This document shows, piece after piece, positions 6,248 through 12,249 of a stretch of DNA of 32,284 bases. Numbering within the stretch: the first letter of the stretch is position 1; every line of letters starts with the position of its first letter. Under the pieces are notes generated by a model, which saw nothing but the letters and a program-made list of their open reading frames with translations, did no database searches and was not told the origin of the DNA. This DNA comes from a bacterium (GTDB lineage: Bacteria; Cyanobacteriota; Vampirovibrionia; Gastranaerophilales; Gastranaerophilaceae): positions 1-32,284 of the forward strand of contig JAFXYZ010000043.1 of assembly GCA_017541465.1 (NCBI GenBank), given 5' to 3'. A program made the position numbers and the translations under genes.

Positions 6248-6864
6248 AGAAAACCTTATGTATAATGTCGGCGGTGCTGGTGCTCTTTATCGCACTTTCA
6301 CTGGTTGTAGTGTTTCACTTCGATGTTATTACGGGTTTAGACTTAAAAATATTGGTAAAAATTCAGCACCTGCTCGGGTTTATTCCCTTGCAGGTGCCGA
6401 TTTTTATTTCCGATTTCGGCTATGACCTGTATATGCTTCCTCAGTTGTTAATAATCGGTGCGGTTATGATTAAGTTCGGAAGGTGGAAAGAATTTATAGG
6501 ATATGCTTTGATAACGGAAGGTGTCTATCTTTCTGTTTTGATTTTAAAAGAAATCATTCAGAGAGTCCGCCCCGATGAAATTTATATGAAGGTGCATAAA
6601 ACCTCGTTTTCCTTTCCCTCCGGGCACAGCAGTGTAAGTATGTTTTTTTATCTGACCTTAATTTATCTCATTAATACTTCAGTAAAAAACAAATGGGCAA
6701 AAATTTTTATTGACGCATTTTTAATCTTGTGGATTTTATCGGTCGGATTAAGCAGAATTTATCTCGGAGTTCATTATCCGAGTGATGTTCTCGGCGGATA
6801 TTTGGTCGGTATTTTCGCCTTTTTACTCTTTTATCTCTATTCCCAAAAAATAAGAAAAACATAA
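6232..6864 (+). CDS. PAP2-family membrane phosphatase
   Basis: An integral membrane phosphatase of about 210 residues with five or six hydrophobic segments. The three-part PAP2 active site is complete: K-x6-RP (KEIIQRVRP), PSGH (SFPSGHSS) and SR-x5-H-x3-D (SRIYLGVHYPSD). Family members remove phosphate from phosphatidate, phosphatidylglycerol phosphate or undecaprenyl diphosphate on the outer face of the membrane; which one applies here is not determinable. An ATG at 6211 is also in frame, but GAGAAG at 6221-6226 sits at proper spacing for ATG 6232, so the shorter form is preferred; this still overlaps the radical SAM gene by 16 bases. The next gene starts within its stop codon (TAATG). Confidence 0.88.
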   Translation: MLLSLKKTLCIMSAVLVLFIALSLVVVFHFDVITGLDLKILVKIQHLLGFIPLQVPIFISDFGYDLYMLPQLLIIGAVMIKFGRWKEFIGYALITEGVYLSVLILKEIIQRVRPDEIYMKVHKTSFSFPSGHSSVSMFFYLTLIYLINTSVKNKWAKIFIDAFLILWILSVGLSRIYLGVHYPSDVLGGYLVGIFAFLLFYLYSQKIRKT

Positions 6865-7883
6865 TGAATGTACCGGCACTGACAAATTTAAAAGGAACAT
6901 TTTATTCTAATAAAAACACTCTGAAGGTATTAAAGTACGCTTCAGATAATCCTGCGCTCGTGGAAAAAGCCGCTACTTTTGCGCTCTCGACCATAATAAG
7001 ACCGATTTCAATTTTAATGACACCAAAGACCGACAAGAGAGAAAAAGAGTATATGTTCGCTAAATCTTTTGCTTCGGGGGCTATCAGCTTCGGGCTCACT
7101 TCCCTGATTTTTAAACCCGTTTCAAGAGCGATGGATACTATTTCAAAAGAACCTCAGAAATATCTGACGAAGGAAACCATTAATACTTTAAAAACGGCAG
7201 GCAAAACGCTGGAGGAGTCTGCGCCCTTTAATTTCCTCAAACAGACCGTAAAATATACTCCTGCCATCGTTTCGATTTTCCCAAAGGCACTTTTGACAAC
7301 GGCTTTAATAACTCCGATTATTGAAATTGCGTTTGATAAAAAGTATAAAATTAAACTGCCCAAGTTTGAACCGTTTAAACTTGAGAGTAAAAAACTTCAG
7401 AAGAGAGAAGAGAAAAAGCAGAGCTTTAAAGGGGAACGACTTGCAAGAGCTATCGCAAAGCCCTTAAATAATGAAGCTGTTCAGAAGTTTGCGCTGAAAC
7501 ATCAAAACTCTAATTTCTTTATAAAAATTCTTTCGGCTAAAGACCTGATAGCAACAGGATTTTTTGCGTTTTTGACGAAGAACAGCAAACATATTGAGGA
7601 TAAAAACAAAGAGCCCCTGATTATTAACTCCTTCTTATCGACTGCACTTGCAATTACGGGCGGTTTTGCGGTGGATAAACTCACCCAAAAACCGATGGCG
7701 AAGTTCCTCGACAGGTTAGAACAGGCGAACAGAGGGGATAAAGACCTTCCGAAATACATTGAGGGGGCAAAAATTCTGAAGCCTATCGTTATTCTGGGTG
7801 TACTCTATTATGCAATAGTACCTTCTCTTTCGACCTTCCTCTCCGGGAAAATCGCACATGCCCACGAGGATAAGCATGGATAA
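6864..7883 (+). CDS. Unknown lineage-specific membrane protein
   Basis: I do not recognise this 339-residue protein. It is basic and has several moderately hydrophobic stretches (ATFALSTIIRPISILM, FASGAISFGLTSLIFKPV, TPAIVSIFPKALLTTALITPIIEIAF, NSFLSTALAITGGFAV, ILKPIVILGVLYYAIVPSLSTFL) separated by Lys-rich loops, and ends in a His-rich tail (HAHEDKHG). In composition and layout (weak membrane segments alternating with charged loops, C-terminal membrane segment, charged tail) it resembles the unknown proteins at 11185 and 12249, but I cannot show homology by eye. Its ATG overlaps the PAP2 stop (TAATG), and its own stop overlaps the start of the PnuC-type gene, so it is translated as part of that operon. 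Confidence 0.7.
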   Translation: MNVPALTNLKGTFYSNKNTLKVLKYASDNPALVEKAATFALSTIIRPISILMTPKTDKREKEYMFAKSFASGAISFGLTSLIFKPVSRAMDTISKEPQKYLTKETINTLKTAGKTLEESAPFNFLKQTVKYTPAIVSIFPKALLTTALITPIIEIAFDKKYKIKLPKFEPFKLESKKLQKREEKKQSFKGERLARAIAKPLNNEAVQKFALKHQNSNFFIKILSAKDLIATGFFAFLTKNSKHIEDKNKEPLIINSFLSTALAITGGFAVDKLTQKPMAKFLDRLEQANRGDKDLPKYIEGAKILKPIVILGVLYYAIVPSLSTFLSGKIAHAHEDKHG

Positions 7884-8565: not shown

Positions 8566-8573
8566 TAATATAA

Positions 8574-8620
8574 CTCCCTCTCCTTTGGGAGAGGGTTGGG
8601 GTGAGGGTTTATTTTTTTAT
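8574..8620 (+). terminator. Repeat-derived hairpin terminator (CCCTCTCC/GGAGAGGG element)
   Basis: CCCTCTCC (8576-8583), loop TTTG, GGAGAGGG (8588-8595), then TTGGGGTGAGGGTTT and a run of seven T. It lies immediately after the PnuC-type gene and can end that transcript. The same G-rich arm with TTGGGTGAGGG recurs inverted at 10474-10509, so this is a dispersed repeat serving as terminator. Confidence 0.65.
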
Positions 8621-8711
8621 TCTTGATTTCCGTTAAATTTTTTCATTTGTTATAATTTTGAAAAATATGGTATTATAAATATAAGATAATAAGAGATGTG
8701 AGGATATTTTT

Positions 8712-9474
8712 ATGTTCAATTTTAAAAATAATCAAGTTCCTACCCCCCCCCTACTTCTTTTATAAAAGAAGTAGGCAAGAAAATTTTAGTAGTTTTTCCG
8801 GTTCAAATAATAATTTATTAAATCGTAGTTTTGGTCAATGTAATGCCTTCACTCTCGCCGAAGTTCTTATTACTTTGGTTATTATCGGTGTTATTGCAGC
8901 AATAACAGTTCCGACTTTGATGAATAAGACAAATAATCAAGAATATGTTTCAAGATTAAAGAAAGCATATTCAACGATGTCACAGGCAACAAATCTCATA
9001 ATTGCTGAAGAAGGAACTGCACAGGCTGATAAAGGCGGTTGGGCAGATAGTGGTAATCATATTTACGAACTATATAAAAAACATTTAAATAATGCAAAAG
9101 AATGTGGTGCCTTTTCTAATTGTTATAATGGTAATTATAAAAAACTCAGTGGACCAGATTATCCTTGGGAATGGCGAAGCATTGGAGATATGCATAAATT
9201 AATATTGTCTGATGGAACACAAATTATTTTTGAACATGATAATGCTGCTTGTGAATCATTTGGGGTCTTTGAGAATCGTTGTATGCAGATAATCATAGAT
9301 GTTAATGGAAACAAAAAACCAAACAAACTTGGTCGTGATGCTTTTTATTTTGTTTTGCAACCTTATTCTTTTGTGCCAGCTGGTTGTTCAAATACATCTA
9401 ATTGTAATGTTACAGATGGTTCCGGAACAAGTTGTGCCTGCAGAGTTTTAAGAGAAGGTGCAATAAATTATTAG
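8712..9474 (+). CDS. Type IV pilin-like / pseudopilin protein; 5' frame broken at a C9 tract
   Basis: From about 8850 the frame encodes a clear prepilin: AFTLAEVLITLVIIGVIAAITVPTLM, with the +5 Glu of the methylated hydrophobic helix, followed by a globular domain with several cysteines (CGAFSNC, AACESF, NRC, GCSNTSNC, SCACR) and DUF-type pilin repeats typical of this lineage. GAGGA at 8700-8704 points to ATG 8712 as the start (MFNFKNNQVPTPP), but that frame stops at 8763-8765 just after nine consecutive C (8743-8751). Losing one C, or gaining two, joins it to the pilin frame. A GTG at 8698 opens the whole frame without a shift, but it overlaps the likely ribosome site. The gene may be phase-variable, switched off, or misread in the assembly. 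By family it would be an extracellular filament or secretion-system minor subunit. Confidence 0.8.
8743..8775. repeat. C9 homopolymer joined to a perfect 26-nt palindrome
   Basis: Nine C at 8743-8751 run into a perfect palindrome at 8750-8775: CCTACTTCTTTTA and its exact complement TAAAAGAAGTAGG. Both lie in the 5' coding part of the pilin-like gene. In a genome this AT-rich a nine-C run is unexpected. Confidence 0.85.
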
Positions 9475-11184: not shown

Positions 11185-12249
11185 ATGATTTATTCTATTG
11201 GTACACAGCAAAATTCAGCCGTTAATGAGAAGATAGCGTTTGGCAAAAGAAAAGCCAAAGATAAGCAGGCTTCTCTTGATGAGCACGATCATCTTATGCT
11301 TGAAGAGTATAAGAAGCATCCTGTTTCGACTAAGTTTAATATAGCTTATGACAAACTCACGAATGCTCTGACGACCTATCCTGCAAAAGGTTTCAGAGGC
11401 AGTGTAAACTCAAACTTCTATGAATTTCTGACAATGGGCACAATACCCTATCTGGTCGGAAGCGGAATGCTGATGGCTGTTTTCGGTTTGGCAGGTAAGT
11501 TCTTTGACGCAAAATCAATGGCTGCTTCAGCAAAAACAAGCAAAAAGATGGCGCTCGGTGTACTTTTCTACGGCATAGCCAAAACTTTATCAAAGAAGCT
11601 CATTGAAACACCCGTAAAACTTAAATACGGTGTTGATGTTAATCTTCCCGTAAAAAGAGTTATTAATGAAGTTCCCGACGGAACAAACAACGATGATCTG
11701 GTCTCTTATGAATATCATAAAGCCTTTGAGAGTGTTGATTTCCCGAGATTTGATTTATTATACAGTTCCCCCGAATCAGGAAAACCCCAAAACAGCTACT
11801 ATGATATGGTAGCAAAGAAAATGGGGCTCGGTGAAAATCTTAAAGACTCTGACCAGCAGGTTAAACCCAAAATAAGAGAGCTCGTCACAAAGACAAGAAC
11901 CTTCACAACTCTGAGTTCATATCTCTGGGCAGCTTCAGCGGTCGGTATCGCTATGCAGAAGCCCTGGGAAACTTCAGCCGTTAAAGGTTTGAAAGGTTTT
12001 GTAAAAGCTCCCGTTAAAGCCGTCAAATACTTTGGCAGCCAGTTCGGAAGAAGTTTCAAAGAATTTCTGGGCATAGGTGAAAAAACCCTTAAAACAAAAC
12101 ATATCGCAGGAAGAGCCCTGCTCGGTCTTGCAGTTGCTACAACAGTAATCGGAAACATCGTTACACTTTCCGATTCAAAAACAAAGAAAGCCAAAAAAGC
12201 TGCTGCCACACCGCTTATTAATAACGATAAAACAAAGGTGGTGTGCTGA
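11185..12249 (+). CDS. Unknown lineage-specific membrane protein, paralogue of the next gene in part
   Basis: A 354-residue protein I cannot assign to a named family. Near the N terminus is KIAFGKRK. Hydrophobic segments are at about 87-110 (TMGTIPYLVGSGMLMAVFGLAG), 127-142 (MALGVLFYGIAKTL), 240-255 (SSYLWAASAVGIAM) and 312-330 (GRALLGLAVATTVIGNIV), with a Lys-rich tail. After the second segment comes KLIETPVKLKYGVDV, closely matching KLFIQAPIKARTGVDI in the next protein, and both then have a 60-80 residue loop before another hydrophobic pair. So the two share a module. It heads a tightly coupled operon: its TGA overlaps the next ATG (TGATG). No strong ribosome site is seen before its ATG. 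Confidence 0.7.
   Translation: MIYSIGTQQNSAVNEKIAFGKRKAKDKQASLDEHDHLMLEEYKKHPVSTKFNIAYDKLTNALTTYPAKGFRGSVNSNFYEFLTMGTIPYLVGSGMLMAVFGLAGKFFDAKSMAASAKTSKKMALGVLFYGIAKTLSKKLIETPVKLKYGVDVNLPVKRVINEVPDGTNNDDLVSYEYHKAFESVDFPRFDLLYSSPESGKPQNSYYDMVAKKMGLGENLKDSDQQVKPKIRELVTKTRTFTTLSSYLWAASAVGIAMQKPWETSAVKGLKGFVKAPVKAVKYFGSQFGRSFKEFLGIGEKTLKTKHIAGRALLGLAVATTVIGNIVTLSDSKTKKAKKAAATPLINNDKTKVVC

Follow-up and report, generated by a model that had tools for sequence, protein, structure and literature searches.

A run of nine cytosines near the 5′ end of a pilin-like gene of Gastranaerophilales is very probably a translational phase-variation switch, which would operate by slipped-strand mispairing in the part of the prepilin that is predicted to be cleaved off, and the same arrangement is repeated over a very large family of pilin genes in this genome. 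The gene lies in a window of 32,284 nucleotides (the whole stretch of DNA analysed here), which is contig C4 of a 2.1-Mb draft genome in 74 contigs. The mechanism would be of a known kind, since phase variation through homopolymers is well documented (PMC6321876, PMC5084427, PMC1891110), and what is new here is how it is concentrated on a single, very large family of pilins, together with its placement in a removable leader. If this is true, Gastranaerophilales, which are relatives of Cyanobacteria that live in the gut and have been studied chiefly through metagenomes, hold a very large phase-variable set of a single family in a small genome, with some 65 pilins here that each have a gate of their own and comparable numbers in certain relatives, and the pilins of a widespread lineage of the gut would constitute a combinatorial trait at the population level. 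It would also help to account for the high number of pilin genes in these genomes, and could be tested directly in existing metagenomic reads. Moreover, because most copies are out of frame, gene callers will miss or mis-start many of these pilins.

On the forward strand of the window, a ribosome site GAGGA (8700..8704) serves the ATG at 8712..8714, nine C follow at 8743..8751, and the frame ends at TAA (8763..8765) within a perfect 26-nt palindrome (8750..8775), all of which had been pointed out in an earlier sequence-only reading of this DNA and was confirmed in the sequence. The nine-C run, described there as striking, is indeed the sole run of C or G of six or more in the whole window, and a chance test on the window alone, with 3 C7 positions against 0.77 expected, is suggestive only. 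As that reading had also recognized, the frame of ATG 8712 is off by one relative to the pilin, and the two are joined at C8, with one C lost, or at C11, with two gained. In its present OFF state the short frame (8712..8765) encodes MFNFKNNQVPTPPLLLL followed by the stop codon, and its leader, MFNFKNK.VPTPP, runs into the pilin in those paralogues that are in frame. The mature pilin-like protein, beginning with FTLAEVLITL, is intact with 208 aa and a stop codon (8848..9474), and is recognized by a TIGR02532 match above the cut-off, a modelled N-terminal helix and paralogues of 60% identity. GAGG or GAGAGG at the place of the ribosome site is common among the paralogues. Further upstream, a consensus scan found a possible sigma-70-like promoter at 8647..8676 on the same strand (TTGTTA and TATTAT with a spacing of 18 and a TG before the second hexamer), whose 9 of 12 matches are about what is expected from shuffled sequence. 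Elsewhere in the window, no Pfam family matches the open frames of 339 aa (6864-7883) and 354 aa (11185-12249).

In the proposed mechanism, ATG 8712 would be the real start, and the tract would lie in the leader cut off by prepilin peptidase. Replication slippage would gain or lose one C, so that at C8 (or C11) the leader would be read into the prepilin, and at C9 translation would stop at 8763-8765 and yield no pilin. Because the tract sits in the removed leader and the OFF state makes none, the mature protein would be unchanged whenever it is made. With about 65 scattered pilin genes that share this design and would switch separately, very many pilin combinations could arise in a single population. 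Such switching would presumably be reversible, with ON genes expressed and their products serving in a pilus or in secretion, and it may bring an advantage in the gut such as escape from immunity or phages, or altered adhesion.

A search of the genome with the mature pilin returned 90 matches, fragments included, and inspection of their surroundings identified 78 genes with a prepilin start, 66 of which carry a C7-C10 tract in the leader. The position of the tract is strikingly constant, starting exactly 31 nt after the ATG in 53 of the 63 assessable genes, and the bases before it, wherever conserved, are TA. The genome contains the motif TACCCCCCC 69 times and its reversed control once; among the places examined, one (C43:110484) is clearly non-pilin, and in a few others the site is at a contig edge or no pilin can be seen downstream. 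The confinement to leaders extends to 391 pilin genes from many genomes, in which C or G runs of seven or more number 293 in the leaders and one in the bodies (in 260 kb). Of the features that the sequence-only reading proposed to look for in other pilin genes, the C-run is thus general (66 of the 78 prepilin genes), and the palindrome is found in a minority only (17 of the 66 tract genes). Two contig ends, G000:C37 (L242) and G000:C40 (L074), have 19 nt in common directly after a C10 tract, and probably represent one pilin gene split by an assembly break near the tract. Some tract-bearing pilins are broken in other ways, with an internal TAG in L023, an interrupted body in L032 and a nonsense codon in the leader of L066.

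Frames were called where the start codon leaves the frame open up to the tract, and among the 63 genes assessable in this way 25 are in frame and 38 are out (24 off by one in one direction and 14 in the other), although these counts come from genes related to each other and are not independent events. Sorted by their flanks, the genes fall into a class that is ON at C8 (17 C8, 24 C9, three C7 and one C10) and a class that is ON at C9 (10 C8 and eight C9), and none of the 63 has flanks that need C7 or C10. The gene of the window is a C9 member of the former class, now OFF and ON once one C is lost. The occurrence of C8 or C9 is independent of flank class (Fisher p 0.40), and the number of ON genes agrees with that obtained from shuffled lengths. 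The flanks therefore keep the ON state usually one slip away and the length drifts, as would be the case for a tract that slips but not for a fixed signal of recoding.

An intact pilin body of at least 170 aa is retained in all 38 OFF genes, and in 27 of them no ATG, GTG or TTG exists in the pilin frame ahead of the mature protein, therefore these 27 could not be made from another ordinary start. The dN/dS of OFF pairs equals that of ON pairs at about 0.53-0.57, a value that is indicative only, given high dS and the mis-assigned starts of three genes (L042, L047 and L059). Pilins with no tract or with an interrupted one are in frame in nine of nine assessable cases (p 0.0006). These results bear on the GTG at 8698..8700, which opens the pilin frame over 258 aa and from which the sequence-only reading had considered that translation might start with the frame intact; this start is unsupported, because it shares sequence with the ribosome site that serves ATG 8712 and is not a feature common to the paralogues, and both the 27 OFF paralogues devoid of an in-frame start and the in-frame tract-less pilins make it unlikely to be real. 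Across the family, the tract between start and body sets the frame, and both states exist with the OFF bodies intact, as in known homopolymer phase-variable genes. Phase variation by slippage, the first of three options raised in that reading, is hence strongly supported at the level of sequence and on genome scale, by the 66 tracts, the 25 ON and 38 OFF genes and the intact OFF bodies.

The palindrome CCTACTTCTTTTATAAAAGAAGTAGG (8750..8775) stands at the start of a dispersed insert of about 95 nt (8751..8845), which is located between the tract and the mature pilin, in the leader predicted to be cut off by prepilin peptidase. The genome contains 18 copies of this insert at 82% identity or more, all in pilin leaders, and one further weak copy at C74:58497. 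The centre of the palindrome varies among copies (AT, AC, GT and GG), and tract genes that lack it show the same mixture of in-frame and out-of-frame states as those that have it. It had been suggested that the palindrome could stall polymerase or ribosome as part of the switch; however, being present in only 17 of the 66 tract genes and variable at its centre, it is not needed for switching, and it is probably an inserted element outside the switch, in a leader that seems to tolerate insertions. The RNA hairpin formed by the palindrome of the window is stable (z -4.0). A role as terminator was rejected, since no T-run follows the palindrome and a terminator scan omits it. Other dispersed palindromic repeats, CCCTCTCCTTTGGGAGAGGG-like among them, occur between tract and mature pilin in L014, L021, L023, L032, L048 and others; these are translated in ON genes, and one such repeat is found upstream of the gene of the window (8573-8610). 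The removable leader may offer small palindromic elements a site where they can insert without harm.

Among 383 genomes of the order, a run of six or more C located 5-35 nt before a prepilin start was found in 43 and a run of seven or more G at a similar place in 70, with none for the reversed-pattern control in either case, numbers that are rough, as some C6 matches, such as ones in G026 and G101, belong to repeats of another kind, and tracts farther away are missed. Counts of generic poly-C over the family had proved misleading, and the pattern tied to the prepilin start was adopted because the C-runs that were sampled from other genera had no pilin close by. In relatives, L119-L122, L126 and L136 consist of clustered TTTACCCC-like repeats around C-runs and are unrelated to pilins. 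Those relatives that have names are Candidatus Gastranaerophilales and Melainabacteria genomes, many of them from gut samples. A pattern search of genome and viral contig collections found no leader of the window's own type in another strain. Leaders differ in other genera, and poly-G is found beside poly-C even in a single genome (G239), suggesting that the arrangement evolved repeatedly or is very plastic. Outside the genome of the window, only 23 of 213 genes are ON. The 2.2-Mb genome G239 has at least 158 pilin matches, and in G214 17 poly-C and 67 poly-G tracts are located directly before prepilin starts.

Differences of single bases in tract length have been observed between nearly identical sequences. 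In G060, copies whose flanks are 90-95% identical are OFF at C11 or C12, and a single copy with C13 is ON. In G277, contig C41 begins with 112 nt that also close contig C68, and the two stretches differ in nothing but C9 versus C10; exact matches to this leader occur only at those two contig ends. The simplest reading is that the pair is one locus at which the assembly was broken by two coexisting lengths, and it could also be two paralogues with identical ends. No length variants were found at the contig-end overlaps of G047, G229 and G041, which had either the same length or different paralogues.

Genus g7 follows a different pattern, in which nearly all poly-C tracts are C10 and out of frame by an identical offset (14 of 14, 17 of 17 and 7 of 7 genes in three genomes), and the tract lengths of orthologous pairs agree between species. 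This uniformity is stiffer than free slippage. We read it as a tract length that is favoured, the frame being arranged to be OFF at that length, under which a cell with many pilins would express few at once; in Campylobacter, too, poly-G tracts cluster near one length, with 52% 9G and 30% 10G in one set (PMC6321876). The g7 data also speak for the main rival explanation, namely that RNA polymerase or ribosome is programmed to slip on the C (or G) run such that genes out of frame still yield a fixed, small amount of product, for length and offset are near constant there and conserved between species, and in the window's gene a hairpin follows the tract. However, the window's genome, G041 and G060 show a mixture of offsets, with many genes already in frame, the shift required is not the same from genus to genus, only a minority of genes have the hairpin, and bacterial transcriptional slippage has been studied mainly on A/T runs (PMC1088944). 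A constant offset combined with a conserved stimulator, as a programmed frameshift would have, was not found, and g7 alone shows the offset part. Transcript slippage or programmed frameshifting, the second option of the sequence-only reading, is thus disfavoured in the window's genome, where the offset is not constant, and unlikely as an explanation of the whole. Equally doubtful is the narrower proposal that the C10/G10 tracts of g7 are held at one length and that dozens of paralogous pilins are expressed there by programmed polymerase or ribosome slippage, beside sister genera with DNA-level switches.

The third option, sequencing or assembly error, would mean that every gene is truly in frame and the lengths are miscalled. 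Homopolymers are error-prone and the genome is a draft in 74 contigs. However, the tract is conserved in 66 genes and many independent assemblies, the departure seen most often in the window's genome is a single surplus C (24 genes), no other gene of the window is disrupted, and errors would not yield the uniform offsets of g7 (14/14 and 17/17). Error could not have produced a tract conserved at a fixed place in 66 genes, and it is very improbable as a general explanation, while any single length may still be wrong. Just as improbable is that the OFF copies are silent donors or decaying pseudogenes for gene conversion and the tract a mere recombination landmark, since, even though exchange is plausible among paralogues that share leaders and conserved pilin N-termini, with dispersed repeats in many leaders, the OFF copies retain ribosome site, start codon, intact body and a dN/dS equal to that of ON copies, and a donor could do without a start codon and without a frame that a single slip turns ON.

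Type IV pili of Neisseria vary in part through a homopolymer near the coding 5′ end (the poly-G of pilC), and Neisseria pilin varies by gene conversion with silent partial copies (pilE/pilS). Unlike pilE/pilS, the phase-variable pilins proposed here are complete genes, each with its own start and tract. Like the contingency loci of Campylobacter and N. meningitidis, they have G or C tracts of about 8-12 in or close to the 5′ end of genes linked to the cell surface, with the length setting the frame. The known loci, however, serve many unrelated functions, with 18-39 phase-variable genes per genome in C. jejuni (PMC6321876) and 115 genes of many kinds at simple-repeat loci in N. meningitidis (PMC5084427), whereas here about 65 proposed switches are found on one pilin family in a 2.1-Mb genome, inside a removable leader and in a lineage next to Cyanobacteria. 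In Bordetella fim/fimX, too, the length of a C-run controls the gene of a fimbrial subunit, but that run is in the promoter and alters transcription, in contrast to a coding leader in which the reading frame is altered, and Bordetella fimbriae are unrelated to type IV pilins (PMC1891110). A text search of the open-access literature found no report of phase-variable pilins in Melainabacteria or Gastranaerophilales; type IV pilus genes were noted in a termite Melainabacterium with phase variation unmentioned (PMC5877343), and pili are unmentioned in the first paper on Melainabacteria of the human gut (PMC3787301).

The protein itself resembles type II pseudopilins and type IV pilins (TIGR02532, GspG) in its N-terminal FTLAE motif and long helix, and differs from them in a C-terminal half for which no named family was matched and in its extreme copy number. 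Its prepilin site reads A^FTLAE, with cleavage before F, E at +5 and a hydrophobic helix, as in class III signals. TIGR02532 scores 18.6 bits against a cut-off of 16.3, Pfam PF07963 falls below its own cut-off, and the N-terminal helix is the part that aligns with GspG and other pilins. The predicted structure has a long helix (residues 4-56) and a beta-rich head with a mean pLDDT of 84.7, and Foldseek returned no significant fold match in the PDB. The genome also encodes the machinery that such a protein would need, with one match above cut-off for prepilin peptidase (PF01478) and several for assembly ATPases (PF00437).
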